A stretch of 62,455 bases of DNA from an uncultured Bacteroidales bacterium (lineage in GTDB: Bacteria; Bacteroidota; Bacteroidia; Bacteroidales; WCHB1-69), in NCBI GenBank assembly GCA_900315705.1, contig ONAB01000018.1:1-62455 (forward strand). The letters are read 5' to 3'. Numbering within the stretch: position 1 is the stretch's first letter; the number at the start of each line of letters is the position of its first letter. The position numbers and the translations under genes were made by a program. This document shows, in pieces, positions 47,828-62,455 of the stretch. Under the pieces are notes generated by a model. It ran no database searches and was not told the DNA's origin. It saw only the letters and a program-made list of their open reading frames with translations.

Positions 47828-48658
47828 TTACTTGCTCATCACATCTTCTATCTTGCTGTTATCCCCATATATAATAGGTGAGTCGTATGGACGATCCGGG
47901 AATGCACCGTACTCCAGTTTGATATCGAAACCGTGTTCCTTGATGAAGGTTTCCACTTGTTCGGCCAGAGTGACAGGCTTGCCAGAGCAACAATTGATGA
48001 TGCCAGCGACCTTATTCTGCATAACAACGGCTGAAATTTGGTTGGCTAACTCATCTATATGTAAAAAATCGTACTTGGTTTTACCAGAGTTGAATGGGAA
48101 TGTTTTCTTTCCCTCCTGTGCGGCTTTGCATATTTTAGTAAAAATGGAATGATTCTTAGTGTCATCACCAAGAATGTAATATCCTCTAAGCCATTGAAGC
48201 GTAATGTCTTTTTGTGCACAGTAAAGTGTGAGCGACTGTCTCAGGGCATTCTTGGCAATTCCATATTGGGTGATGGGGTTGCAAGGAGTGTTTTCGTCAA
48301 TTTTTCCTTCCCAGTAGCCGATTTCGTGCATCGAACTCATCACAGCCACTTGCTTCAGGCCCTGGTTGATTAATGCGGTCAAAAACTTGTAGTGGGCAGA
48401 CAGATCGCCCATTTGTGTTTCGGCATTATGTACAAAGCCGTTACGCCAAGCTAGATGCAAACAGACATTTGGTTCCCCAAACCGATTGAAAATATCAGTG
48501 TAATCTTCTGAAAACAGATCCATTTGTACAATCTTGGCGCGTTTGTCCACGTCATTCGTAGCAATATCACAAGCCACAACGTCACACCCTTTGTCCAGTA
48601 ATGCGGAAACCACGTGGCTTCCTATATACCCATTTGCACCTGTTACCAATATTTTCAT
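47828..48658 (-). CDS. NAD-dependent sugar epimerase/dehydratase
   Basis: A 276-residue extended-SDR enzyme. The NAD-binding loop is GANGYIGSH (8-16), the catalytic Tyr-x3-Lys is YGIAK with upstream SSMHE, and the later region shows KYDFLHIDELA. It is expected to alter a nucleotide sugar for the glycan made by this locus; the substrate is not predictable. It has its own promoter, so it need not depend on the long upstream operon. Confidence 0.88.
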   Translation of the reverse strand: MKILVTGANGYIGSHVVSALLDKGCDVVACDIATNDVDKRAKIVQMDLFSEDYTDIFNRFGEPNVCLHLAWRNGFVHNAETQMGDLSAHYKFLTALINQGLKQVAVMSSMHEIGYWEGKIDENTPCNPITQYGIAKNALRQSLTLYCAQKDITLQWLRGYYILGDDTKNHSIFTKICKAAQEGKKTFPFNSGKTKYDFLHIDELANQISAVVMQNKVAGIINCCSGKPVTLAEQVETFIKEHGFDIKLEYGAFPDRPYDSPIIYGDNSKIEDVMSK

Positions 48659-48753: not shown

Positions 48754-49788
48754 CTAAAACTCTCCGATTATCTCCAGCATCTCACGCACACGAGCCAGAA
48801 AAGTGTGTTGTTCGGTGACAATCTTGCAGGCCGCAGCTGCGCGTCTTTCCCGTTCTTGTACGTTATTCTCTTCCAAAGCCCATCCGATAAGTTGTAATAA
48901 TTCCTGTTCGTTATGATAAAGTCCAATTTCGCCGTTAGGAAACAAAGATTCGATGTATGGATTTGCATCGCAAATCTGGTACACTCCGGCACCGCAGGCC
49001 TCAAAAAGTCTTTGGTTGGCCCCGTGAAAAGTCTGTTCGTGGTGGATGTTCAGGGCGATTTTGGTGCGGCCGAACAGTTCGTTAACCTTCACTGGCGGAA
49101 TATTTACATTCTTGTATATGTCCCTTTTTTCACGGAATATGCATTTCAAAGGGGATTTTACAAATGGTTTATACCATCCATATACCAGGATTTTTGCATT
49201 GGGGAAATGATTGACGACGGATTGTATCAGATGCATCCGCTTTTGGCTGGTGTACAATGTCGCGACGAAAAGAATATCAATGTCTTTGTCTTGGTTTGCA
49301 AGGGGATAATAAACAGAAGTGTCGCACGCCAGTGGGAGGAAATAGGCTTTCTTCCCTTGCTGGGCATAATACTCCACATCCCTTTCTTCAAAACAGAAAA
49401 CGGCATCCGCGTGGTCAATATGCTTCTCGCAACGTGCCCTGTCGGGTCTTTGCACGCTGTCATACATCCAAAGGATGACTTTTGACTTCTGTCTGAAATA
49501 GTCCAACCGTTCGTCCAACAGAATGGTCCCATTGTAGGAGAACACGATATCAGGCTGATAGTCATCATACACCTGCTTGATGTAGGTGTCGTATTTGGCT
49601 CGGCTTTGTGCGCGAAGACGCTCCTTGTCGTTGGCAAACTTGTGCCTCCACTTTAACAATCCTTTGAACGGGTGGATAGGCTCATCGTAGGTTTCGATCT
49701 TCACTTGGTAGCCGAGAGCCTCAAACGCCCGGCCAACGCTGATTTGGTAGTCGTAAAAAGGGGATGATAAGATGAGTGCTTTTTTCAT
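48754..49788 (-). CDS. CgeB-like glycosyltransferase
   Basis: A 344-residue protein. I start at ATG 49788 (MKKALILSSPFYDYQ); the longer frame runs into the preceding gene. It has a GT-B-like layout with DADAVFCFEERDVEYY, a DIDILFVATLY strand starting the second half, and a donor-site region ANQRLFEACGAGVYQI with the family's conserved acidic and glycine residues. CgeB-type proteins decorate surface or spore glycans. It is the last gene of the long reverse operon, 7 bp after the AAA-ATPase gene. Confidence 0.82.
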   Translation of the reverse strand: MKKALILSSPFYDYQISVGRAFEALGYQVKIETYDEPIHPFKGLLKWRHKFANDKERLRAQSRAKYDTYIKQVYDDYQPDIVFSYNGTILLDERLDYFRQKSKVILWMYDSVQRPDRARCEKHIDHADAVFCFEERDVEYYAQQGKKAYFLPLACDTSVYYPLANQDKDIDILFVATLYTSQKRMHLIQSVVNHFPNAKILVYGWYKPFVKSPLKCIFREKRDIYKNVNIPPVKVNELFGRTKIALNIHHEQTFHGANQRLFEACGAGVYQICDANPYIESLFPNGEIGLYHNEQELLQLIGWALEENNVQERERRAAAACKIVTEQHTFLARVREMLEIIGEF

Positions 49789-49795
49789 TTTTTTC

Positions 49796-51754
49796 TCACT
49801 GTTGGTTTTCAAAATTGTACTGTCGAATTTGCTGAAACGCAATTTCCGTCAATCTATATTTTTGATTTGGTGTCGTGAGTTTTCCAAGATCCGTCTTTGT
49901 TATCCATTTTTTTTCCTGTAATAGATTAATAATACCATTTCTCAGTCTTGTTCTGTTCTTTTCATTTAGCAACAACATCATCTCTGATGTCGACAAATCC
50001 GTTTTCAACAGTTCTGATATTATCCTTGTCAATTTATTTTTTCGTATTGCAGTTGTATCGGGGAAATACTGATTTACAACTAATGCAATTATGTCATTAC
50101 TGGGGACACTTTTTCTTTGAACTGGGGACATATTTATTACATTGCTGGGGACTCTTTCATCCACGACTTGAGACATTTTTTTTATCCGCTTAATCTCACA
50201 TTGGTGCTTCTTAGTCCGTTTGTTGTAATTGATACCCACTAAAATCACATCTCCCACATAGTCCACGAGAGAATCGGAATAATGTTTGTCTTTTATCTGA
50301 TTGATAGCGGTTTTCACTGTGGCATTGTGTTTCAGTTCAAGGACAAGAGCAGGCATATCCATATTTCGTCGAGGAACAAGCACCAAGTCGGCGAATCCTT
50401 TGCCAGTTGGCAATTCCCGAATCATCACGTATTGATCCTTGGCTGCATAAAAAGCCAAAGCCAGCACACAAGCCAGCGAATTTTCATCGTTATATTGCAA
50501 GATGCTGGTGCTGTCGGAATGGACGCGGTCTATTGCCTCTGCCACCCGCTCGGCTTCGCCATTTATAGTCCACTGTAGTAGTTGCTCAGATTGTTTTAAA
50601 GCATTAGAAACTTCTACCCATCCGGTATCTTCAACTGCGGTTTCAAATTCAATTCCGATTTCTTTGTTGGGAATATAACACTCACTCGTATCTCTATTAT
50701 ACGATAGATACCCCAAATGTATCAGCACAGTAAAGACATCGTTTTTACTGTTGATAACATTCACATCGTTTTGGAAATTTTTGGTATTTACAGTGCAACT
50801 TTCTCCCGTAAGCAGTTTAATCACATCATCCTTCAGCCCCTCGTAATTCATCTTGATGTAGTGAGACACCGTTTCGTAAGTGCCTGTGTTCGACCAATAG
50901 CTTTCAAAATATCGACGCTTAATAGCTCTGATTACCGACAAGGGGTTGTATATTGATTCCTCTTCGCCTATCCGATAACCGTCGTACCAAGTTTTGATTT
51001 GTTCTTTGTCAATCTTATTGCGGACACATAATTCCGAAACTTCTTTATCCGTAAAACCAAAGCAGTCAGCCATTTCCCCCGGGGAAATCATTGTATATTC
51101 CTCAAAGTTATTCAATGCCGACTGGGTTTTGTATTTCTTGATGGGTAGGATTCCCGTCATATACACCCCTGCAAATACCGACAATGAATTGCCTGATTTG
51201 AAAAGCAGCCGAAGAAAGTCCACGTATGCTTCCCCATCATTCTGTACAGAGTTGGATTCGCGCAAAATAGCATCCCATTCGTCCACAATCATAATGAATT
51301 TGGCGGGTTCTGCCTGCTGTAAAATGGCGTATAAAACAGACAACAAATCCTCATTTGTATTATATTTTACATTAGGATAAGCCTCTTTTAATTCTGCTAT
51401 AATATCAACTTGAATATGATGAATAATATCACTACTATTCCTATAGCGAGTAATGAAATTGGTCATATCCACATACAGCACTGGATATCTGTTCAGATGT
51501 TGCTTGAATGAAGGACTGTTTGCGATTTTAAGATCGTGGAACAAATCGGCAGATTGGCACGAATGGTCATAATAAGCGTTCAACATCTTGGCTGCCATTG
51601 ACTTGCCAAAACGCCGTGCACGGCTAACGCACATAAACTGCCGTTCCGAATTCAGCGAATTGTTGACAAGCTCAATTAAAGCACTTTTGTCAACGTACTC
51701 GCCATTGCGTGCAGCACGGAAACCATCATTCCCTATGTTGATATATAAGCCCAT
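49796..51754 (-). CDS. AAA-ATPase-like protein with PD-(D/E)XK (PDDEXK_9-like) domain
   Basis: A 652-residue protein starting at ATG 51754 (MGLYINIGNDGFR). The N-terminal ~300 residues are an AAA-ATPase-like domain: P-loop-like SRARRFGKSMAAKML, then FIMIVDEWDAI as Walker B. The C-terminal nuclease-like domain has GFADLVLVP and ALVLELKHN, with the E-x-K strand of PD-(D/E)XK enzymes. A winged-helix-like tail follows. This family is abundant, often multi-copy, in Bacteroidales; its function is not established. It is out of place between glycan genes and may be an insertion: its 3' end carries a short repeat of the acyltransferase 3' end. Confidence 0.85.
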   Translation of the reverse strand: MGLYINIGNDGFRAARNGEYVDKSALIELVNNSLNSERQFMCVSRARRFGKSMAAKMLNAYYDHSCQSADLFHDLKIANSPSFKQHLNRYPVLYVDMTNFITRYRNSSDIIHHIQVDIIAELKEAYPNVKYNTNEDLLSVLYAILQQAEPAKFIMIVDEWDAILRESNSVQNDGEAYVDFLRLLFKSGNSLSVFAGVYMTGILPIKKYKTQSALNNFEEYTMISPGEMADCFGFTDKEVSELCVRNKIDKEQIKTWYDGYRIGEEESIYNPLSVIRAIKRRYFESYWSNTGTYETVSHYIKMNYEGLKDDVIKLLTGESCTVNTKNFQNDVNVINSKNDVFTVLIHLGYLSYNRDTSECYIPNKEIGIEFETAVEDTGWVEVSNALKQSEQLLQWTINGEAERVAEAIDRVHSDSTSILQYNDENSLACVLALAFYAAKDQYVMIRELPTGKGFADLVLVPRRNMDMPALVLELKHNATVKTAINQIKDKHYSDSLVDYVGDVILVGINYNKRTKKHQCEIKRIKKMSQVVDERVPSNVINMSPVQRKSVPSNDIIALVVNQYFPDTTAIRKNKLTRIISELLKTDLSTSEMMLLLNEKNRTRLRNGIINLLQEKKWITKTDLGKLTTPNQKYRLTEIAFQQIRQYNFENQQ

Positions 51755-51758
51755 CTTA

Positions 51759-52331
51759 TTAGTATTGTTTGGTCTCCCATTGTTTGGTTTCAAAGTTGTA
51801 TTGTTTGATGACCTTTGCAGGTGCACCGACAGCAACACAATAGTCTGGTATGTCGTGCGTTACCACAGAATTGGCTCCGATGGTGCAGTGTTTGCCAATG
51901 GATGCGCCAATTACACAAACATTTTCACCCAGCCAACTCCCCTCACCTATTCTGACAGGGTTAATTTGTTTGATTTCTTGTTGTATGATAGGAATATTAG
52001 GATTTCCGTAAGAATGAAGATTATCGGAAATATAAACCTTGTCTGCAGTAAGCACATAATTCTCCAATACGATTCCTTCTGTAGCATAAATGTGATTAAA
52101 GTGACCGATGGTACAACCCTTCCCGAATTTGAGAATGGGATTCTTACAGCCTGTAAGCGGCTGGCAGGCCAACCAAGTATAGGGCTGTACATATACGTGG
52201 TCTTCTATCTCAGTATACTTTTTCCCCTCAATACGAAGAGGTTTGTCAATCCTGCTTTTCTTTCCAAAATGCTTGAATAGAAAAGGATAGAGGAAAAGGG
52301 ATTTCAGTTTGGCGATGAATTTGTGAATCAT
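51759..52331 (-). CDS. Hexapeptide-repeat acyltransferase
   Basis: A 190-residue left-handed beta-helix enzyme. Hexapeptide-type repeats run through ILKFGKGCTIGHFNHIYA and later GEGSWLGENVCVIGASIG, ending with VGAPAKVIKQYNF, the typical close of the NeuD/WbbJ-like group. It probably O- or N-acetylates a sugar of the glycan, using acetyl-CoA. It overlaps the methyltransferase stop by 4 bp. The C-terminal tail has an ETKQWETKQ mini-repeat. Confidence 0.88.
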   Translation of the reverse strand: MIHKFIAKLKSLFLYPFLFKHFGKKSRIDKPLRIEGKKYTEIEDHVYVQPYTWLACQPLTGCKNPILKFGKGCTIGHFNHIYATEGIVLENYVLTADKVYISDNLHSYGNPNIPIIQQEIKQINPVRIGEGSWLGENVCVIGASIGKHCTIGANSVVTHDIPDYCVAVGAPAKVIKQYNFETKQWETKQY

Positions 52332-53257
52332 AATCTTTTTAAATAGAACGTTGCTTGGTCGCCGTCTCTATGTTTATTCAACCATAAGGCAAACTTATTG
52401 AAGTAATTTAATTCGCTTTTATTGAATACATCATAAGAATCATTGAATGTATAGCCTCTTAAATACTTTTCAGAATAAACAAACTGATATTCTGTCGAAT
52501 CGTATATTATTTTATCACATTTTAAGCCACATTTTTCACATAAGAAAAGAAAACTGTATAAAGTATGAAGGTAAATGTGGCGAGGAGCATCCATCTGCAC
52601 CCAATTAGTCCCATATTTTCTCCACGCATAACTATCAATCAAGGGTATTCTTATCAATAAAGTGCCATCCTCTGCCAACAATTGATTTAACTGTGACATT
52701 ACTTTATAGGGATTAGGCATATGTTCAAAAGAATAGTGTAGCATGACTGTATCATACTTATCGTGCTCATCATATATGGAATGGTTCTCAATCACAACAT
52801 CTCCATAATTGAGAACTTGAGGATTATACGGATCAATTCCTTTTAAATGCTTAAAACCACGATGTCTCATTAATTGGAGTAATCTTCCTGATCCGCATCC
52901 AACATCCAAAATGGTTTTATTAAAATCAAAATATGGTGATACTATCCAGTGTTGCAATCTTGAAGCAAATAAACAATTGATAATAGGTCCAAATAATGAG
53001 AATTTTCCTAGGCGATATTTAAAAAACTCGGAACCGATAAAGTCAGCCAAAGAATTATGTGTGTATTGTTGGTTGAAGGAGTAATAATTGTTCTGATAAT
53101 ATTTTGACATATTCATATCCTCATCAACCAATTGCATACATCCACATTTTGAGCACTTTATATATTCAAATGATTCCTCGGACCCGAACATTTTTTCCTG
53201 GACTATAAAATGTTCATTATATAAATCATTTCCACAAATACGACAAGTTTCTTTCAT
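52328..53257 (-). CDS. SAM-dependent methyltransferase with N-terminal zinc-binding motif
   Basis: A 309-residue enzyme; start ATG 53257 (MKETCRICG). The N-terminus has two CxxC pairs (CRICG and CSKCGC), a zinc ribbon seen in sugar C-methyltransferases and relatives. The Rossmann core has the SAM loop ILDVGCGSGRLLQLM and the later MLHYSFEHMPNP. It probably methylates a sugar during glycan synthesis. It overlaps the acyltransferase start by 4 bp and follows the preceding gene by 19 bp. Confidence 0.85.
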   Translation of the reverse strand: MKETCRICGNDLYNEHFIVQEKMFGSEESFEYIKCSKCGCMQLVDEDMNMSKYYQNNYYSFNQQYTHNSLADFIGSEFFKYRLGKFSLFGPIINCLFASRLQHWIVSPYFDFNKTILDVGCGSGRLLQLMRHRGFKHLKGIDPYNPQVLNYGDVVIENHSIYDEHDKYDTVMLHYSFEHMPNPYKVMSQLNQLLAEDGTLLIRIPLIDSYAWRKYGTNWVQMDAPRHIYLHTLYSFLFLCEKCGLKCDKIIYDSTEYQFVYSEKYLRGYTFNDSYDVFNKSELNYFNKFALWLNKHRDGDQATFYLKRL

Positions 53258-53276
53258 AGTGAGATTTCTGAACGGG

Positions 53277-54242
53277 TTAATTATGTGTCCAAGAGCCCCA
53301 GTACTCTTGAATAAATTGTTTTTGCTCCTCTGATATCTCAAATGTTGGTTGGCCGAATATTACACCAAACTTGTGCTTAATTTGAGTCAGATGCTCTTCG
53401 TTATTCTTTACCAGATTCTCAAAGGGATTGTCTTCAAGCTGATATTGATACTCTTGATCATAGTAGTAAACAGGCCTGTTCATACTAATGCCGTATCCGA
53501 TGTAAGATCCTATCCCATTTGTCATAATCATATCCGATAAGAAAATTAAGTCTTTCTGTCTGCTTAGGAACATAGGATCACTGCGATGCCCATTACTGAC
53601 AATAGTGAAATTATTTTTTTTGCATAATTCAATGAATGGGTCTGTGGACAACAAATCCTTCCAATAAGCGCAAATGAAAATGCTGTTAAACTTGTCACGA
53701 ATCTCCAAGATTTTTTCGATAAAATCATTTGCAGAATATTGGGCAGAGGCACCCTCCATTGAATGTACTGGAAAAACAAGTAAAATTTTGCCGTGCTTAT
53801 CCTTGATTTCTTTCAATTCTTTTTCCGAATGGAAAAAATCCGCTCCCAATACATAAGGGCCAACGGCTATTACTTTCTTTTGAAAGTTTCTAGATTTTAA
53901 ATATTGTTCAATGGTTTCCTTTCTTTTGTCACTATAAGTATATATTGTTCTTATTGTTTTGCGATCTATATAGCCTATAGCAGGAACGGCGTTGATGTCT
54001 TCAAAAAACGATAACCCGTGTTCAAGGTAGTCTTTTATAAGGTTAAATCGGCTTCCTTTCAGTTTGGCTACAGCTTTCCAATTTCCGTAATTCAGCACAC
54101 TGGCAAAACCGTATGGCACTTTATGATTTGGATAAACTAACTTCTCATAGTCGAAATAATCTATGTTCCTCACCTTATGGTTGTAATATAAATAGTTAGT
54201 AGTCGTCGAAACGAATCTGAAAAACTTTCTGATTATTGACAT
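53277..54242 (-). CDS. Putative glycosyltransferase-like protein
   Basis: A 321-residue soluble protein; I start at ATG 54242 (MSIIRKFFRF), as the upstream frame overlaps the preceding gene. Two Rossmann-like halves are suggested by KILLVFPVHSMEG and the later LIFLSDMIMTNGIGSYIGYGISM, a pattern seen in surface-carbohydrate GT-B proteins. No family is recognised with confidence. Its place between a ulosonic-acid-like cassette and sugar-modifying genes supports a transferase role. Confidence 0.6.
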   Translation of the reverse strand: MSIIRKFFRFVSTTTNYLYYNHKVRNIDYFDYEKLVYPNHKVPYGFASVLNYGNWKAVAKLKGSRFNLIKDYLEHGLSFFEDINAVPAIGYIDRKTIRTIYTYSDKRKETIEQYLKSRNFQKKVIAVGPYVLGADFFHSEKELKEIKDKHGKILLVFPVHSMEGASAQYSANDFIEKILEIRDKFNSIFICAYWKDLLSTDPFIELCKKNNFTIVSNGHRSDPMFLSRQKDLIFLSDMIMTNGIGSYIGYGISMNRPVYYYDQEYQYQLEDNPFENLVKNNEEHLTQIKHKFGVIFGQPTFEISEEQKQFIQEYWGSWTHN

Positions 54243-54297: not shown

Positions 54298-55218
54298 TTA
54301 ATTAATAAGCAGTTTACCAACTATTTTTTTTACTTTGTTTGAATTCGTCCCATAGCGGACAGCCTTATGACCGTCTTTTGGGAAAAGGACGATGCAAGAG
54401 CCTTCTCTGAGCAACAACCCAGAGCGGTTCCCGTTATCCAAGTAGTTCAAAACATCCGCATCCTTGTCATATTTGGAGCACGGCGTTAAATTTGCGATAT
54501 CTGTCACCAACAATTGTTCCCCACCCTCTATAATTCGTTGTATATCAATATATTTGCGATGTGATTCGTACATAACTTCACTGTTAACCTTAGGAACATA
54601 CTCTATTATATTGTAAAAAAAATCCTCTGAAACAATATAATTGCCAACGTTTTCATTTCCCAAATTATCAATATAAGCAATAGCTTGATTCAGTCGCGAT
54701 ACCACTTTTTCTTCATCATAGTAAAATGCCTCAGTAGTGATAAGAGCCTCAACAAAATCCCTGACAGCTCCTTCTCCACCGTTGTGCGGTGCGACAAAAT
54801 CACTTATTGCAATTACTTCTTTTGCTGCATTTGAGGGGCAGCCGACAATACCTCCGGCCTCTTTGACAGGATTCATACATTGTAAATCAAGCAAATCATC
54901 CCCAATGTAGGCGACATTGGATAGGTCATATTGCTGTTCAATAGAAGAATATCTTTTTAGAATATCATACAAACAGTCCAATTTGTTCATTACACCTTGA
55001 TGGATTTCAGTAATGCCAAGTTCCTTACAGCGGAGATCCACCATCTGACTCTTTCTTGCGGTGATGATGATGGGGATAATACTATGCTTGTTGAGCAATG
55101 TATGCAGTGCGTACCCATCCTTGATGTCAAAGGCCTTCATCATCTCCCCATCGTTGCCCATATACACTTTGCCGTCTGTCAAAGTGCCATCTACATCCAT
55201 TACGAGAAACTTAACCAT
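54298..55218 (-). CDS. KdsC-type HAD phosphatase fused to a YhcH/YiaL-type domain
   Basis: A 306-residue two-domain protein; ATG 55218 gives MVKFLVMDVDGTLTDG. Residues ~1-165 are a KdsC-like HAD phosphatase: D8-V-D10-G-T nucleophile motif, ITARKS, and YIGDDLLDL. KdsC relatives remove phosphate from 8- and 9-carbon ulosonate phosphates. Residues ~170-306 are a YhcH/YjgK/YiaL domain, with YESHRKYIDIQ and LFPKDGHKA. That family belongs to sialic-acid and sugar-acid metabolism and has been linked to anomer handling. The fusion suggests successive steps on one sugar acid. The start lies one base after the stop of the TPP gene. Confidence 0.85.
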   Translation of the reverse strand: MVKFLVMDVDGTLTDGKVYMGNDGEMMKAFDIKDGYALHTLLNKHSIIPIIITARKSQMVDLRCKELGITEIHQGVMNKLDCLYDILKRYSSIEQQYDLSNVAYIGDDLLDLQCMNPVKEAGGIVGCPSNAAKEVIAISDFVAPHNGGEGAVRDFVEALITTEAFYYDEEKVVSRLNQAIAYIDNLGNENVGNYIVSEDFFYNIIEYVPKVNSEVMYESHRKYIDIQRIIEGGEQLLVTDIANLTPCSKYDKDADVLNYLDNGNRSGLLLREGSCIVLFPKDGHKAVRYGTNSNKVKKIVGKLLIN

Positions 55219-55219
55219 A

Positions 55220-56332
55220 TCAGTCAAAATTGAGTAATGACATTGCTTTAGCATTCAGTTCATCGTTTAGCAAGGGCATAATCAAACCAGTTTCCCATTT
55301 GATTTTTGGAATCAGCAATGTGTCAGGATCGATGGACATGTTGATAAGACAGGGTTCATTGTCTGTAAACCACTCCTTATAATCCTTTAATTCTCGATAC
55401 GAGGGAATTGTCGCTGCTTTGATGCCGTATGCAACGGCAATCTTTTCAAAATCAGGAACTGTATAACCGCTCGTTTTGGTCGTTTGTGCATAACGGTCTT
55501 GATACGAACCATGCTGGATTTCACTGATTTTGCCCAAAACGTGATTGTTAAATACGATGATTTTAATGGGTAATTTTTCGCGGACAATGGTCTCCAATTC
55601 TTGTATGTTCATTTGTAAACCACCATCACCTGTAAGGCAATATACGATGCCGTTATTCATGGATATGGAAGCTCCAATGGCGTAAGGCACCCCGCATCCC
55701 ATAGAACCATAGCCACCACCAATCATAATGCGCCCTTTGTGCCCCTTCAGCGTAAGCGACTGGGCGCACCAGCATTGATGCTGTCCTATATCAATCGCAA
55801 GAATGGGGTTCTCTGGCAGAAGTTCTGAAATCGCCTCGGCTGCATCATTACCTTCAGTATTGTCGTATTTGGCAAGCAATTCCTTGACGGCGAGACAGCG
55901 TCTCTTCCATTCAGAATAGTCGGGGAATTCTTTTTTCTCAAGATACTTCATAAAATCCCGGGCATCCATCAGGTGCTTTTCCTCGTCATCTTTAACATTA
56001 CGACTTAATTCAGCCTGGTCAATATCTGCACGGACTAATTTTGCCTTGGGAGCGAACCACTCTCTCTTGTGTCCTATTTGGCGAAGGCCCAAGCGAGCTC
56101 CTACCGAAATAACCACGTCGCACTTTTCAAGGATCATATTAGCCCAACGGTTACCGTATGTGCCAATCATCCCAATTCGAATGTCGTCTTGCGCGATATC
56201 TACTGCGTTCATCGTGGTGAGTACGGGAATATGTGTTTTATGTGCGAACTCAACAACTAAATCTGCTGCACCAGCAGCGCGAACACCCCCGCCCACTAAA
56301 AGGACGGGCTTTTTGAAGTCTTTATAATTCAT
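55220..56332 (-). CDS. TPP-dependent enzyme, large subunit (central and PP domains)
   Basis: A 370-residue protein equal to the last two-thirds of an acetolactate-synthase-like enzyme. A central domain starts KPVLLVGGGVRAAG. The diphosphate-binding domain follows, with G235-D-G ... N262-N263, the GDG-x24-NN motif for TPP and Mg2+. It lacks the N-terminal PYR domain and its catalytic glutamate. These are encoded by the preceding gene, whose stop it overlaps by 4 bp. The pair should make one active site at the subunit interface. Likely chemistry is carboligation or decarboxylation of a 2-oxo acid. Confidence 0.85.
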   Translation of the reverse strand: MNYKDFKKPVLLVGGGVRAAGAADLVVEFAHKTHIPVLTTMNAVDIAQDDIRIGMIGTYGNRWANMILEKCDVVISVGARLGLRQIGHKREWFAPKAKLVRADIDQAELSRNVKDDEEKHLMDARDFMKYLEKKEFPDYSEWKRRCLAVKELLAKYDNTEGNDAAEAISELLPENPILAIDIGQHQCWCAQSLTLKGHKGRIMIGGGYGSMGCGVPYAIGASISMNNGIVYCLTGDGGLQMNIQELETIVREKLPIKIIVFNNHVLGKISEIQHGSYQDRYAQTTKTSGYTVPDFEKIAVAYGIKAATIPSYRELKDYKEWFTDNEPCLINMSIDPDTLLIPKIKWETGLIMPLLNDELNAKAMSLLNFD

Positions 56333-56856
56333 AATTCAACCTCTGACTTTTGAATGTTATAGGGAAAATCTATGATTACACCGCCTTTTCGACCCAGCAT
56401 AGCCATATTATAGGCACGAGATATGATTTCTGGAAAATCAATCGAACTCAAGGGTGTGACCGAAAGTTTTGTGATGTGTCTTGTCATGGAAACAATATCC
56501 ATCTCTTGGAAGCCATTCTGGCGAATTCCGGAGAAACCCTTTTTTTCATTAGTTGGTACGTTGCCACATATTCCCATAATAGGAATCCCGTCAAACCATG
56601 CATCTGCCAATCCGCCAAAAGCATTTACAGCACCAGGGCCAGAAGTTGTGAAATAAACGCCAAGTCTTCCACTAGTTCGGGCATACCCGTTTGCGGCAAA
56701 TGAGCATCCTTGCTCATTGTAACATACGTGCACCTTTATTTCATGTCGCTTATATAATGCATCTTGAAAAGGTACGATGTATCCACCGGCGAAACCGAAA
56801 ATATCTGTGACACCGTGCTTAATCAGAAAATCGACCAAGTATTCTGAACAATTCAT
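56329..56856 (-). CDS. TPP-dependent enzyme, small subunit (PYR domain)
   Basis: A 175-residue protein equal to the PYR domain of acetolactate-synthase-like enzymes. It has the conserved catalytic glutamate E48 (CYNEQGCSFAANGYART), VYFTTSGPGAVNA, and GVIIDFPYNIQ near the end. It stops exactly at the domain border and overlaps the large subunit by ATGA in another frame. Sulfopyruvate decarboxylase (ComD/ComE) is a known precedent for such a split. A frameshift in a formerly single gene is the alternative, but both parts look undamaged. Confidence 0.85.
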   Translation of the reverse strand: MNCSEYLVDFLIKHGVTDIFGFAGGYIVPFQDALYKRHEIKVHVCYNEQGCSFAANGYARTSGRLGVYFTTSGPGAVNAFGGLADAWFDGIPIMGICGNVPTNEKKGFSGIRQNGFQEMDIVSMTRHITKLSVTPLSSIDFPEIISRAYNMAMLGRKGGVIIDFPYNIQKSEVEL

Positions 56857-56858
56857 AT

Positions 56859-57899
56859 TTATGCGTTGTTTTTCTTGTATTCGTTATATATTTTATCCAA
56901 TTGCGAGAAGTCAGTCTTTGAATAGCCAGCTCCATATCTCGTGCGTTGCTGTGGAGTCAATGTTTCAATTATGTTAAAAACATCTGTGATGGAGCAATTG
57001 GTCACCTCATTCAGATGATTCACATTATCCACGTGGGAGTGTTTTGTCCCACAAATAAACATTGGAAGGTCATACCCCCAGTGAATATGATTCCTAACAG
57101 GCAGAATATACTTGTCAATTGTTTCAAGCAATACCTGTATGTTATAATGGGTATCGCAATGTTTATTCAAAAAATCAGCAAGTAGTTCAGTCTTTGCATT
57201 GCCGGCGCCACGCCCCATGCCAAACAAGGATCCGTCTATACAAATCTCCCGATTTGTTTTCTGGGCAAGTTGTACCATACGTTCAGCCAAAGCACAAGAG
57301 AGACCGAGATTGTCGTGTGAGTGAAGACCTATCATTATATCCTTGCTCAACAACTCATCAAATTGTTTGAAAATCTCTTCCAAATCTGTCATGTACATAG
57401 CACCGAATGTATCCACAATAGAAAAAGCAGAAGGTTTCACTTCATTCACTTTGCCGATCAATTCGGCGCGTTCTTCCATCGTATAACTGATACTGTCCAT
57501 CGGATTGAACTGAACGTGATACCCCTTGTTCTTAGCAGCTAGGCAGAACTTTAGAGAGTCCTCTATTTCGTGTTTGGCGAACGATATGCGTAACCATTTG
57601 AAAGATTTGCCATCGCAGACATCCAATTCTTCAGCAGTATAACGGCTATTATCGCAGAAACCCAAGAAGGTTGTGTTTTTCGCGACAGTCGGTAAGTACT
57701 TTATCACATCCTTGGAATTATGATACACCAAAGTTTCGCCATTTACCTTACTTTGCAAAAAACCCGTTTCTATGTAATCCACACCGGCATCCACAAGGCC
57801 TTGTATGATGCCCTTAATAAATTCAGGATTAGAGTTTTTGTCAAAAAGATAGCCGCCATCTCTGATGGTGCAATCTACAATATGAACTTTTGCTCCCAT
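56859..57899 (-). CDS. DRE-TIM aldolase (HMG-CoA lyase / oxovalerate aldolase-like)
   Basis: A 346-residue TIM-barrel enzyme of the DRE-TIM metallolyase group. Markers are DCTIRDGG (9-16), the metal-binding H193-S-H195-D-N, and GMGRGAGN (227-234). Members cleave or form C-C bonds next to pyruvate or acetyl-CoA; HSHDN with this loop is closest to 4-hydroxy-2-oxoacid aldolases. Beside a CMP-sugar synthetase, it may build a 3-deoxy-2-ulosonate from pyruvate and a sugar aldehyde, though the substrate is unknown. It is 2 bp both after the synthetase gene and before the small TPP gene. Confidence 0.85.
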   Translation of the reverse strand: MGAKVHIVDCTIRDGGYLFDKNSNPEFIKGIIQGLVDAGVDYIETGFLQSKVNGETLVYHNSKDVIKYLPTVAKNTTFLGFCDNSRYTAEELDVCDGKSFKWLRISFAKHEIEDSLKFCLAAKNKGYHVQFNPMDSISYTMEERAELIGKVNEVKPSAFSIVDTFGAMYMTDLEEIFKQFDELLSKDIMIGLHSHDNLGLSCALAERMVQLAQKTNREICIDGSLFGMGRGAGNAKTELLADFLNKHCDTHYNIQVLLETIDKYILPVRNHIHWGYDLPMFICGTKHSHVDNVNHLNEVTNCSITDVFNIIETLTPQQRTRYGAGYSKTDFSQLDKIYNEYKKNNA

Positions 57900-57901
57900 T
57901 T

Positions 57902-58576
57902 TTATTGAATATTGTTGTTTAGTTCCTTTTTGCTTTTATAAATAGCATCACAAATTGCAAAATCTTCAGGATAGTCTATGTCCATTGCTTCAATTTTACC
58001 CACCTCGCAAATAAAGGGTTTTATCCCCACTCTTCGGTTGTAACGTAGGAAGGATTCTTTAGTAAAAACGTATGCAATTGAGGTTTCAGCGAACACATCA
58101 GGAAGGTCCTGTGTGCGGGGAAAGTGATCGGGATTAAAATTTATAGGTTGTCCATCCTTCCACAAGAAAGCCTTTATGTTCTCCGCACAAAATGCGCTGT
58201 CGTATTCACCAGAAATAACTTTTTCAATACATTTATTGATAGTGGACACTTCAGCAAATGGTGATGTCGTATGAGCATTCACATACACATCGGCCTCTAC
58301 CGTTTTCATAAACTCTCGGATGATATCATTTGCATTTTTATCATCCCCATCTAATTCGGAAGGTCTTCTCAAAAATTTCACGTTTGGTAAAACGTAGGGT
58401 ATCACAGAATTATCCGAACAGTAAATATAAACATCGTCAATTAAATTTGAACTTAAGCACGTTCGTTGAATGAAAGACATAAGAGGTGTGCCATCAAAAA
58501 AAGGCTTGATGTTTTTTTTCGGTATTCGCTTGCTACCCAGTTTGATAGGAATTAGAGCAACTATTTTTTTCTTCAT
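57902..58576 (-). CDS. CMP-sugar synthetase (acylneuraminate cytidylyltransferase family)
   Basis: A 224-residue nucleotidyltransferase. The CTP-binding N-terminus is ALIPIKLGSKRIPKKNIKPF, close to the NeuA/KdsB signature with Ile-Lys-Leu in place of Ala-Arg-Gly. Further family positions are VNAHTTSPF and the closing MDIDYPEDF. It should activate a 2-keto sugar acid with CMP. The sequence does not tell whether the acid is neuraminate-, Kdo-like or novel. It leads the long reverse operon and has a promoter about 75 bp upstream. Confidence 0.88.
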   Translation of the reverse strand: MKKKIVALIPIKLGSKRIPKKNIKPFFDGTPLMSFIQRTCLSSNLIDDVYIYCSDNSVIPYVLPNVKFLRRPSELDGDDKNANDIIREFMKTVEADVYVNAHTTSPFAEVSTINKCIEKVISGEYDSAFCAENIKAFLWKDGQPINFNPDHFPRTQDLPDVFAETSIAYVFTKESFLRYNRRVGIKPFICEVGKIEAMDIDYPEDFAICDAIYKSKKELNNNIQ

Positions 58577-58911: not shown

Positions 58912-61090
58912 TCACCTCACCACCGTCACACTCGTGTTTGTCCTTTGCCGCTTTTTGGCGCTGGTGGAGCACCAGTAGTCTATCGCGCAGAAATAGACCC
59001 CGTCGGGCATTTCCGTTGCGTCCCAGCGCGGTGCCTCCTTGCCCTCCTGACGGTAAACCCGCTTGCCCCAACGGTTGTAAATCTCCATCTCTATGTTGAC
59101 AAAATCCCCCTCCAGCTGCGGTTCAAACACGTCGTTGAAGCCGTCGCCGTTGGGGGTAATGACATTGTACAGCGTGATCATGCAGGGCCGCCCGTCCACG
59201 TGTGTGGTGTTGTCCGACGTGTCGCACTCGGCCTGCAATCCGCCGTGCTGCGCTATACCTTCCCCCTGATCGTTCAAAACTATCCTCAACGGGAACGGGT
59301 CGTTGAACTGGCTGAAGAGTGACGAAACGTAAGTGAGTCTGATTGTTATGCAGCCGCCCGGCGCAAAGCTCAACTCTACATCGTCCACTATAAGCAACTC
59401 GCCAGATGCGGTGTAGGTGGCAATGTGCAGGGGGGGACCGAATGACACGTTTTCCGTGTTGCAAACCGTTACCTCCACTTGAAGGTTGTCGCCATTGTTG
59501 GTGATTGTAAGGTCTTGCTGTACAGAAAGATTCGCCAGCGACATAAAAGGCCTGCCGTACTGGTCCAGCGTGGTGGCCTGTTGGAGGAAATTGTTGAAGG
59601 GACGGCGCACCACACCGCTGGGGTCGGTGAAAGTTGTGGAAGGGTTGAAATTGACGGCAGGAATCGTCAGGTCGTTGTTGACATTGACGACATTGTAGGC
59701 GTGCTGGCTCCAGACGTGTCGCGCGGGTGCCCAGACAGTGCTGGCCGGGGAGTGGAACACCACCATCTTGGCGTGCTTGTCGTGGTTGACGTCGTAGGTG
59801 CTGGAGGTGTCCGTCGCGGTCGAGGTCCGCGATGGCGGGGTATTCGACGGCGGTGGGCGCCAGGCAGGGGAAGACAGATATGTTGTTGCCGGTGTTTCCG
59901 TCGATGATGCGCATATCGGACTGGTCGCGATAGACGATTTCGACGGAGCCGTCCTGGTTGAAGTCGAAGGCGGTGAGGGTGGTGGCGCCGGAGAGGTCGC
60001 TGGTGCTCTTCAGCCAGAGCTGCTGCAGGCTCTGGGAGGCGGCGAGGTATCGGTAGGCGGCGAGATTGGTGCCGAAGGTGAAGAGGATTTCGGGGTAGCC
60101 GTCGTTGTTGACGTCGGTGAGCAGGGCCCGCCCGGCGGAGTTGGAGCCGTGCGAGTGCGAGGATATGAGTTGGGGGTTGCTGCCGGACCCGCTGTAGGGT
60201 TTCCAGGCGTACATCTGGTGGGATCTCACGACGACGAGGTCGAGGAAGCCGTCGAGGTCGATGTCGGCCACGGAGGTAAGCCCGTCGTCGAAGCCGCTGA
60301 TGGATTTCCAGAGGGAGGCGTTGTTGCCGGCCGTGCCTGTGCTGTTCGTGATGCTGAGTTTGTAAACCTTGTTGCCTCCGGCCAGTTCCATCACCCCGTC
60401 GTTGTCGAAGTCGGCGAAGACGGGCATAACGCCGAACTTGTCCGAGCTCATATAGAGGTTGGCTTTCCCGACGATTTCCGGTAGCGCAATCAGCTCAACG
60501 CCTGACACGGCGTTGAAGATTTTGTTGAGTGACCAGATTTCGGGGATGCCGTCTCCGTTGATGTCGGCCAGGATCAGGCCCGGCGATTTGGAATCGGGCC
60601 CGGAGACGGTGGCGCTGGAGGTCCAGACCAGGGAGCCGTTGTGATGGTAGCATCGCAGAAAACCGTCTGCATTCTGGACGAAGATTTCGGCGAAGCCGTC
60701 CCTGTCCACATCGGCGATGGCAATGGGATACCCGCCGTAAACGAACATTCTCTGGGTGGCGATTGTGTATTTGTGTTGTAGGTTTTGCCCGTAAATCACG
60801 ACGGAAGAGGACAGGCTTGGGGAGTCGTAGTATCCGACTGTGACGACTTCGTTTTGCCCGTCATTGTCGATGTCGCCGATGAGGGGCTGGGCGTACATAT
60901 GGGAGAGGGCAGGGCTGCTGGCTCCCTGGACGATGCCCCAGGCTTGTTCCTCAGGGAAATATGCGCAGGCAACTGAATCCATATTGTCGGGCAGGTAGGT
61001 TTGGCCTTTTGCCTGCAAGAACAAGGATACACCTATCACGAATATGATAGCCAAACGGGGCGCTCGGAAGTGATATGTGTTTCCTTTCAT
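58912..61090 (-). pseudogene. T9SS type B protein with FG-GAP-like repeats, frameshifted
   Basis: The frame from ATG 61090 has a signal peptide and eight D-x-D/N-x-DG-x-x-E/D calcium-type repeats (IGDIDNDGQNEVV, IADVDRDGFAEIF, FADFDNDGVMELA and others). It continues to IADLDRDGH, near 59810. Coding then shifts to another frame (STYDVNHDKHAKMVVFH) that runs to 58912. That part ends in a type B (CHU_C) sorting domain: ITPNGDGFNDVF, YNRWGKRVY, DGVYFCAIDY. The original frame continues only as a shadow to 59123. The break may be a real mutation or an assembly error in a repeat shared with the next gene upstream. The intact protein would be a surface or released adhesin-like protein of ~725 residues. 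Confidence 0.8.
59530..59807. repeat. Repeat shared by the two type B genes, copy 1
   Basis: About 270 bp here match 62178-62455 with roughly nine visible differences at a constant offset of 2648 bp. It encodes KMVVFHSPASTVWAP to QYGRPFMSLANL in both genes. Confidence 0.88.
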
Positions 61091-61187: not shown

Positions 61188-62455
61188 TTATCGCAAAACA
61201 GTTATCTCCCCTTTCAGTATATGCTTTTCTCCCAAGATGTCCATAATACGAATTATGTATGGGAAAATAGTGTTGTTCCGAATTTCACCCCGATATACGC
61301 CATCCCATTTAAATCTTTTGTCCTTGGAATAAAAGACCTTCTCGCCCCATCGGTTGAAAATGCGAATTTCGAAGTCCGCAATTTGGGGCAGTATGATTTC
61401 GGGGAGGGAGAAACAATCATTCAAGCCGTCGCCGTTCGGTGTGATGGCATTGGGAAGGTAAAGGGTGAGTTCTGGGAGGGCAATGGAGATGGAGATGCGC
61501 AGTATGCTGTCGCATCCATATAGAGATTGCAGGGAGATAAGGGTGTCGAGATGCCCGAGTCTGGTCAGCAAATCAGCAGGAAAGAAAAGTCCGTGCAGGT
61601 CATAATCGGTGCCTTCAGGAAGGGTCTCTGTGAGATGTATGTCATAGTCTGGATGGACGGTGAGTTTCAGGACGATTACGCTGTCACAATTGCCGGACTG
61701 AAATACGCGGCTAAAAAAGAACGTGCCGGCAATCGCGGTCTCTGTCGCTGGTATGTCAAAGTTTTCGTCGGAGTAGGTGTCTCGTGTACAGATGTCGGCA
61801 TAAACCGTGTCGTACGTAACGATGCGGGGATTTGCAGGAAAGAGGAAAAAATTGTCAGTGGTGTCGCACTCATCCTGCTGTCCGCCTGTCTGTGCCACGC
61901 CCGTACCGTTGTCGTTGATGGCCACCACGATGGTTGTCAGTCCCGTGAAAGCGAGTAACTCTCCATTGGTAAACTGCGCTGTTATGGACGTACAGTTGCC
62001 AACCGGCAAAGAACTGTTGACGGTTTCGGTCCGGATTATCGGTCCGTGGTAGCTGTTTGCGTAGTAAGTAATGCTGAACGGGCTTTCCAGGGTTTGTCCG
62101 CCATTGTTGCAGAAGGTGAAGGAAAAGGAGACGGAATTGTTTCCGTAAGTAACAGAGGTGTCATTGGTGGATGCCAGGTTTGCCAGCGACATAAAAGGCC
62201 TGCCGTACTGGTCCAGCGTGGTGGCCTGTTGGAGGAAATTGTTGAAGGGACGGCGCACTACGCCGCTGGGGTCGGTGAAAGTTGTGGAGGGGTTGAAATT
62301 GACGGCGGGGACGGTCAGGTCGTTGTTGACATTGACCACATTGTAGGCGTGCTGGTTCCAGACGTGTCGCGCGGGTGCCCAGACAGTGCTGGCCGGGGAG
62401 TGGAACACCACCATCTTGGCGTGCTTGTCGTGGTTGACGTCGTAGGTGCTGGAGG
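61188..62455 (-). CDS. T9SS type B sorting domain protein, N-terminus beyond the window
   Basis: About 421 codons are visible and the frame is open at the window edge (SSTYDVNHDKHAK before the first internal Met), so the start lies outside. The first ~90 visible residues nearly equal the same part of the adjacent gene. The middle is different and has a cysteine-spaced repeat style (TVYADICTRDTYS, SLYGCDSILRIS). The end is a type B sorting domain: LPNAITPNGDGLNDCF, IFNRWGEKVF, ILKGEITVLR. By analogy with its neighbour the missing part probably holds FG-GAP-like repeats. Surface or secreted location is inferred. Confidence 0.85.
   Translation of the reverse strand, partial: SSTYDVNHDKHAKMVVFHSPASTVWAPARHVWNQHAYNVVNVNNDLTVPAVNFNPSTTFTDPSGVVRRPFNNFLQQATTLDQYGRPFMSLANLASTNDTSVTYGNNSVSFSFTFCNNGGQTLESPFSITYYANSYHGPIIRTETVNSSLPVGNCTSITAQFTNGELLAFTGLTTIVVAINDNGTGVAQTGGQQDECDTTDNFFLFPANPRIVTYDTVYADICTRDTYSDENFDIPATETAIAGTFFFSRVFQSGNCDSVIVLKLTVHPDYDIHLTETLPEGTDYDLHGLFFPADLLTRLGHLDTLISLQSLYGCDSILRISISIALPELTLYLPNAITPNGDGLNDCFSLPEIILPQIADFEIRIFNRWGEKVFYSKDKRFKWDGVYRGEIRNNTIFPYIIRIMDILGEKHILKGEITVLR
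62178..62455. repeat. Repeat shared by the two type B genes, copy 2
   Basis: Partner of 59530-59807; the window ends while still inside the match. Such long near-identical repeats are typical places for contigs to end. Confidence 0.88.

Follow-up and report, generated by a model that had tools for sequence, protein, structure and literature searches.

To our knowledge, sugar acids activated with cytidine monophosphate (CMP) are made from the products of phosphoenolpyruvate (PEP)-dependent synthases, and the closest described systems are the pathway to 3-deoxy-D-manno-oct-2-ulosonic acid (Kdo; KdsD-KdsA-KdsC-KdsB) and the CMP-nonulosonate pathways (NeuB/NeuA, PseI/PseF and LegI/LegF). Contig ONAB01000018.1 of an uncultured Bacteroidales bacterium (assembly GCA_900315705.1; 62,455 nucleotides, hereafter the window) carries a five-gene cassette encoding a CMP-sugar synthetase-like protein (CMT), a DRE-TIM aldolase (ALD), the two halves of a thiamine diphosphate (ThDP) enzyme, ThDP(N) and ThDP(C), and a KdsC-type phosphatase fused to a YhcH-type domain. 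The cassette resembles the Kdo pathway in its KdsC-subfamily phosphatase and CMP activation, but it has no KdsA and its CMT misses the KdsB cut-offs. It resembles the nonulosonate pathways in having a CMP-transferase of the same superfamily and, in many loci, sialyltransferase-like genes, whereas an aldolase and a ThDP enzyme stand in place of the PEP-dependent synthase and NeuB is missing from most hosts. We give a slight preference to the reading that the five genes move horizontally as a cassette and make a CMP-activated acidic keto-sugar without a PEP-dependent synthase. No description of this gene set was found among the titles and abstract openings retrieved from the open-licence literature.

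All five open reading frames (ORFs) lie on one strand at 54298-58576, where a first-pass annotation from the sequence alone had placed them (Table 1). CMT and ALD are separated by 2 base pairs (bp), as are ALD and ThDP(N), ThDP(N) and ThDP(C) share a 4-bp ATGA overlap, and the phosphatase gene follows 1 bp further on if it starts at ATG 55218, whereas its longest ORF, from 55254, would run into ThDP(C). With the start at 55218, the tight packing described in that annotation holds. Its family calls were likewise borne out by Pfam and NCBIfam matches (PF02348 CTP_transf_3, PF00682 HMGL-like, TPP_enzyme_N, TPP_enzyme_M+C and KdsC+YhcH).

Scanning the contigs of named genomes with a four-sequence ALD alignment gave 30 related loci (57-85% identity); alignments A3 and A4 comprise 21 and 20 of these, near-duplicates and cut or mis-started ORFs being left out. 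When the count was confined to genes on the ALD strand with starts no more than 6.5 kb from ALD, CMT was found in 27 of the 30 loci, ThDP(N) and ThDP(C) in 29 each (ThDP(C) matching only in part in L083 and L091) and KdsC in 25. All five occur together in 23, and because the families co-occur in most of the loci, the grouping seen in the window is not a product of chance. Contig ends account for gene misses in L093 and L096. Gene order varies little, KdsC preceding the ThDP genes in L082. The hosts, several of them from animal guts and including gut and rumen dwellers, belong to Bacteroidales, Paludibacteraceae, Lachnospiraceae, Butyrivibrio and other Clostridia, with one Synergistaceae, one Spirochaetales and one Thermoplasmata archaeon, the last a metagenome-assembled genome (MAG). 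The ALD of the window is 83-85% identical to proteins in three genomes (G029, G021 and G346), one of which, G346, is from another family. At that level, and with the window counted, it occurs in 3 of 105 genomes of its own family and 3 of 393 of an order sample, and the window stands alone among 395 genomes of a phylum sample.

Some loci have peculiarities of their own. The Spirochaetales locus L091 (8001-10581) holds a degraded-looking cassette in which CMT has no match, the ALD match starts only at residue 28 and ThDP(C) looks broken. In Butyrivibrio sp. NC2007 (L083, 9523-10416), ThDP(C) is interrupted after ~160 residues, and the sequence that follows resembles, by eye, a mobile-element ORF. 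L074 and L075 are two cassette copies on two contigs of one MAG, and L075 carries two CMT paralogues side by side. The full cassette of L085 (2804-6592) lies in the MAG labelled Thermoplasmata archaeon, a host label taken from the record.

NeuB (PF03102) and KdsA (TIGR01362) were then sought, each at its model cut-off, in 29 distinct host genomes (32 entries, three of them repeats). The first-pass annotation had seen neither synthase; in the host's own genome (97.62% complete) NeuB is likewise absent (0/1), and KdsA lies on another contig, C34. The same genome encodes, outside the cassette, a second PF02348 protein (208 bits) and a second KdsC, and Kdo synthesis can therefore do without the cassette copies. 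Nine of the 29 hosts have NeuB, one of them weakly (G904, 39.8 bits), and 20 have none over the cut-off; KdsA is present in 11 and absent from 18. The two sets of hosts do not overlap, and nine hosts have neither synthase over its cut-off. Among these nine are G883 (identical to G021), an 84%-complete MAG of the Bacteroidales whose KdsA is probably missing from the assembly, and G909, where the cassette is represented by a cut ALD fragment alone. In the remaining seven (L077, L078, L085, L086, L087, L089 and L095), which are Clostridia or the archaeon, all five genes are present; all seven are MAGs, and incompleteness is a caveat for each of them, less so for the seven together. A synthase always present elsewhere in the genome, which would have supplied the acid, is thus not the rule, in so far as MAGs and metagenome records can tell.

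ALD matches PF00682 (9.8e-25) and aligns with the 4-hydroxy-2-oxo acid (HOA) aldolases over all 346 residues, giving the whole-length fold of pyruvate-type aldolases, with the TIM barrel and the C-terminal domain of the HOA group. Invariant residues are D9, R13-D14-G15-G16-Y17, H193, H195 and G229-R-G-A-G-N-A235. The 4-hydroxy-2-oxovalerate aldolases of the DmpG/BphI type share with it this fold, the metal-ligand motif and GxGxGAGNA, but they have RDGxH where ALD has RDGGY, and ALD stays under the NCBIfam cut-offs (83.5 bits against 286 for TIGR03217). No acetaldehyde dehydrogenase partner was noticed in the cassette loci, although no search was aimed at one. A family of 320-residue ALD-like proteins beside a chorismate mutase lookalike (L063-L065), judged by sequence reading only, was set aside as separate.

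CMT exceeds the PF02348 cut-off (E 3e-17; 63.6 bits against 22.6) and its nearest solved chain is 1qwj, a CMP-N-acetylneuraminate synthetase (3.2e-15). It falls under every curated NeuA, PseF and KdsB cut-off, its best NCBIfam match being PseF (TIGR03584; 81 bits, far under 205.7). The phosphatase fusion seen in the first pass is confirmed at subfamily level, the KdsC part passing TIGR01670 (KdsC-phosphatas; 139.9 bits, cut-off 106.95) and the YhcH part TIGR00022 (72.4 bits, cut-off 45.5). The fusion is optional, being present in 12 of the 30 loci at E<=1e-5. The DUF386 domain is what the cassette has in common with the YhcH/NanQ anomerases; it differs from them in being fused to a KdsC-type phosphatase and in failing the N-acetylneuraminate anomerase model (NF040884; 58.6 bits against 160).

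Two ThDP ORFs are present in all 29 loci that reach this region, and a frameshift or assembly error as the source of the two genes is rejected on this ground. The window and six further loci start ThDP(C) in an ATGA overlap; a GGAGG-like site precedes it in the window and in four of these six loci. Another 21 loci start ThDP(C) at a TTG 47 bp before the end of ThDP(N), with AAAGGAGG-like sites written into the GRKGGV codons upstream; the best upstream match to AGGAGG covers 5-6 of 6 positions in all 21. A codon comparison served as the control for these sites: the site-forming Gly codon is GGA or GGG in 20 of the 21 TTG loci versus one of seven ATGA copies, window included (Fisher p 1.2e-4, a value overstated because the sequences are related). 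L088 starts ThDP(C) with ATG, and ribosome-site matches are weak in L076, L088 and L094. In L091 the TTG is at its usual place, and the ThDP(C) match does not begin until residue 35, in another frame than the start. The split and the pattern of starts and ribosome sites point to two translated subunits; we know of no other two-subunit acetohydroxyacid-synthase-like enzyme, although no search was aimed at one. In the TTG class a programmed +1 frameshift may be an alternative, but the fused chain that it gave would lack the usual domain linker.

A profile of ThDP(C) searched against PDB matched 8rph (9.6e-61), then the acetohydroxyacid synthase (AHAS) chains 5ahk (6.2e-58) and 6lpi (3.6e-56); a single-sequence search, unlike the profile search, ranked AHAS first. 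The two halves score 151.1 and 229.2 bits against the AHAS model TIGR00118 and fail its cut-off of 538.35. Invariant in 21 sequences are R80-L-G-L-R84-Q85, G235-D-G-G, L266-G-K268 and P342-K343. The AHAS RFDDR motif thus reads RLGLR, and R84 aligns with the Arg of FDDR, which we take to be the acceptor-carboxylate binder. K268 and I272 stand at the places of the Met and Trp of the GMVTQW stretch of yeast AHAS. Together these residues suggest an acceptor that is acidic or phosphorylated and larger than that of AHAS. The top profile match, 8rph, is JanthE, reported to be a YerE-like carboligase that accepts 4-hydroxy-2-oxovalerate, with P293, a substrate-pocket position, and Y297 as two of five positions picked by docking (PMC12188165). 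These two residues correspond to R84 and H88 of ThDP(C), the numbering of the 8rph chain being one higher. The ThDP enzyme may branch the sugar rather than build its backbone. With YerE-like systems (yersiniose and erwiniose; YerE, ErwE and JanthE) the cassette shares a ThDP carboligase of the same superfamily and, in loci with CDP (cytidine diphosphate)-sugar genes, an ALD beside such an enzyme; it differs in the split gene, in CMP-type rather than CDP-type activation, in the Arg at JanthE P293 and in the presence of KdsC and YhcH.

From these families we infer the substrates, the order of the two carbon-carbon steps and the product as follows. ALD would add the enolate of pyruvate to a (possibly phosphorylated) aldehyde, giving the phosphate of a 4-hydroxy-2-keto acid. 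Onto this skeleton the two-subunit ThDP enzyme would couple a 2-keto-acid unit after its decarboxylation, which would extend or branch the chain; the loss of CO2 at this step could provide the drive that PEP supplies in NeuB and KdsA. The KdsC domain would then take off the phosphate, YhcH, where present, would open or interconvert the ring, CMT would attach CMP to the keto-sugar acid, and a nearby CMP-sugar-type transferase would put the product on a surface glycan. That ALD acts first comes close to an even chance, an order with the ThDP enzyme first is conceivable with a lesser one, and action of the ThDP enzyme on another molecule altogether is improbable. The first-pass proposal that the aldolase, perhaps with the ThDP enzyme, builds the skeleton by a different carbon-joining step and that transferases place the CMP-activated product on a surface glycan finds partial support in the co-occurrence of the five families, the hosts free of NeuB and KdsA, the pyruvate-type fold of ALD and the CMP-sugar-type transferase families in many of the loci; the identity of the product stays a matter of inference. 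Its most specific form, in which the work of the PEP-dependent synthase falls, across phyla, to a reversible pyruvate aldolase together with a split ThDP carboligase that releases CO2, and a carbon-branched ulosonic acid results, a monosaccharide class of which we know no description, is put forward tentatively. If true, there would be a second chemical solution to CMP-sugar acids, also in hosts where PEP-dependent synthases were not found, and gut and rumen microbes, among others, might bear a new monosaccharide; the cassette would travel across bacterial phyla and reach an archaeal MAG, and the two-subunit acetohydroxyacid-synthase-like enzyme would have a role.

Candidate transferases lie near many cassettes. 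In the window the adjoining gene, g6, is predicted to have a GT-B fold (pLDDT 86.6), its best matches being CMP/CDP-using polymerases and Kdo and polysialic acid transferases, mixed with UDP-N-acetylglucosamine epimerases. Relatives of g6 adjoin the cassette in G029 and G021, and in G026 they adjoin a cluster of long-aldolase, CMP-transferase-like and HAD (haloacid dehalogenase) genes; the relative in G029 matches no CMP-sugar-type transferase family. Elsewhere, CMP-sugar-type transferases exceed Pfam cut-offs in L070 and L072 (GT52), L071 and L086 (PF07388) and L077, L080 and L095 (MptE-like/DUF115). By BLAST clusters, GT52/PF07388-type genes are near the cassette in 9 of the 30 loci, MptE-like genes in four and g6 relatives in four (one shared), together 16.

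The aldolase also occurs in other settings. Eleven of 20 loci that were read hold a longer ALD of 510-540 residues (L049-L055, L059-L062), whose extra C-terminal domain bears a weak likeness to MptE/DUF115 (E 0.013; hhalign probability 78% over 48 columns). Nine of the eleven (L049-L051, L054, L055, L059-L062) hold a gene of a CMP-transferase BLAST cluster, which also links KdsC phosphatases, and nine (L050-L055, L059-L061) one of a common HAD cluster; the CMP-transferase-cluster gene of L050 is of the KdsB family. In a search of 194 genomes around Butyrivibrio sp. INlla18, an ALD match at E<=1e-60 occurs in 21, of which 19 lack a close ALD of the five-gene type. L056-L058 each have a short ALD beside a ThDP enzyme of full length, and L053 combines a long ALD, an HAD gene, a JanthE-like ThDP enzyme (3.5e-120) and RfbH; CDP-sugar genes were confirmed for the tested members of L053, L056 and L057. 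In these four loci the aldolase looks like a supplier of the donor for a branched CDP-sugar, a role that makes chemical sense because ErwE is reported to branch a CDP-4-keto sugar with 2-keto acids that are hydroxy-functionalised (PMC12247030). No mention of such a role was found in the portion of the open-licence literature that was covered.

Several observations weigh against the proposed cassette function. CMT, ALD and the ThDP enzyme meet no curated equivalog cut-off, and their substrates are therefore unreadable from family names. DmpG H21, the active-site histidine of HOA aldolases, aligns with Y17 of ALD, so the chemistry of ALD may differ from theirs. Four uncut loci (L074, L083, L088 and L090) have no KdsC match near ALD. 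The Foldseek match of g6 is weak (best TM ~0.4) and includes UDP-sugar epimerases; tested neighbours fall below the Pfam cut-off in L083 and L088 and have no Pfam match in L079 and L081. Every host that has neither NeuB nor KdsA is represented by a MAG or metagenome record, and three hosts resembling cultured strains (L082, L083 and L092) are all NeuB-positive; the apparently cultured hosts, not labelled as MAGs, are Butyrivibrio sp. INlla18, Butyrivibrio sp. NC2007 (L083) and Lachnoclostridium sp. Marseille-P6806. Finally, 11 of the 29 hosts have KdsA, and in L072 the gene immediately upstream of CMT encodes a KpsF-type isomerase, so Kdo metabolism could feed the cassette in Gram-negatives.

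This last point leads to an unlikely but live alternative, in which KdsA or NeuB supplies Kdo or a nonulosonate in trans, activation falls to CMT and KdsC, and the only contribution of ALD and the ThDP enzyme is a carbon branch. The hosts with KdsA (11) or NeuB (9, including the three apparently cultured ones), the relatives of the isomerase in L071, L073 and the long-aldolase locus L061, and the likeness of the ThDP enzyme to the sugar-branching JanthE all speak for it, whereas nine hosts have neither synthase and the window's genome keeps KdsA, a PF02348 protein and KdsC apart from the cassette. The seven five-gene Clostridia and archaeal hosts among the nine weaken it, and it is alive for the Gram-negative hosts and the three NeuB-bearing strains. 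Branching could also come last, the ThDP enzyme moving the acyl unit of an ALD-made hydroxy-keto acid onto a nucleotide-activated keto sugar, here the product of CMT, as in YerE-like systems. The ALD and full-length ThDP enzyme in the CDP-sugar loci L053, L056 and L057 are in keeping with this, as are the hydroxy-functionalised donors of ErwE (PMC12247030) and the 4-hydroxy-2-oxovalerate taken by JanthE (PMC12188165); but the five-gene set holds no gene for making a keto sugar, and the invariant R84 at the JanthE P293 position, as in AHAS, suggests a carboxylate or phosphate acceptor, which makes this route quite improbable.

A product that is no sugar at all is harder still to credit. Nucleotidyltransferases related to CMT are known for phosphonates, and the large shortfall of CMT against all curated NeuA, PseF and KdsB cut-offs would allow a small non-sugar acid or other compound as its substrate; KdsC over its cut-off and the YhcH fusion point instead to sugar acids, and no phosphonate gene was noticed in the loci, although no search was aimed at one. 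Least credible of all is a role in unrelated amino-acid metabolism, with the ThDP enzyme as the host's own acetohydroxyacid synthase, ALD as an isopropylmalate- or citramalate-like synthase and the sugar genes adjacent by accident. PF00682 and AHAS-like families are indeed common to leucine and isoleucine enzymes, and one fact favours this possibility, which the first pass had named as fatal to its proposal: the window's genome has no acetolactate synthase over the TIGR00118 cut-off, the cassette subunits being the best matches. Yet CMT is kept with ALD and the ThDP enzyme in 27 of 30 loci, many with glycan-type neighbours, ALD aligns with HOA aldolases over its whole length, scores against the AHAS and LeuA models end hundreds of bits short of their cut-offs and RFDDR is replaced by RLGLR.

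Table 1. Positions of the cassette genes, neighbouring genes and related aldolase loci (window positions unless a locus is named).
Feature	Position	Strand	Length	Assignment and matches
CMT	57902..58576	-	224 aa	CMP-sugar synthetase, NeuA/PseF/KdsB superfamily
ALD	56859..57899	-	346 aa	DRE-TIM class II aldolase, HOA-aldolase type
ThDP(N)	56329..56856	-	175 aa	Subunit with pyrimidine-binding (PYR) domain, split ThDP enzyme; PF02776 1.5e-35
ThDP(C)	55220..56332	-	370 aa	Middle and pyrophosphate-binding (PP) domains, split ThDP enzyme; PF00205 1.9e-29, PF02775 6.5e-38
KdsC-YhcH	54298..55218	-		KdsC-type HAD phosphatase with C-terminal YhcH/DUF386 domain; TIGR01670, TIGR00022, PF04074 6.9e-25
GAGG	56340..56343	-		Candidate ribosome-binding site of ThDP(C), within ThDP(N) 3' end, upstream of ATG 56332
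g6	53277..54242	-		GT-B-fold protein, candidate glycosyltransferase adjoining cassette
Methyltransferase	52328..53341	-		S-adenosylmethionine methyltransferase, possible later part of glycan cluster; PF13489 7.9e-24
Acyltransferase	51759..52331	-		Hexapeptide acyltransferase (WbbJ-like); PF00132 over cut-off, NF007240 107.5 bits (under 243 cut-off)
ORF in glycan cluster	49796-51838		680 aa	Relatives in L055, L078
Glycosyltransferase	48754..49842	-		Glyco_trans_1_2; PF13524 2.3e-19
Epimerase-like protein	47828..48658	-		Short-chain dehydrogenase/reductase; PF01370 9.7e-30
L053	8004-12095			DRE-TIM aldolase and full-length AHAS/JanthE-like ThDP enzyme
L056	6133-9918			DRE-TIM aldolase and full-length AHAS/JanthE-like ThDP enzyme
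L057	1199-8401			DRE-TIM aldolase and full-length AHAS/JanthE-like ThDP enzyme
L058	7242-9928			DRE-TIM aldolase and full-length AHAS/JanthE-like ThDP enzyme

The genes downstream of the cassette had been described as transferases that place the product on a surface glycan. The GT-B-fold protein and the glycosyltransferase fit this description; the others are a methyltransferase, a hexapeptide acyltransferase, an epimerase-like protein and the 680-residue ORF, which we take to resemble AAA-ATPase/PD-(D/E)XK proteins. On the other side of the cassette, the window contains tandem, partly near-identical genes with C-terminal TPNGDG-type domains (58912-61090 and 61188-62414), the first copy changing frame between the ORFs 59123-61090 and 58912-59766.

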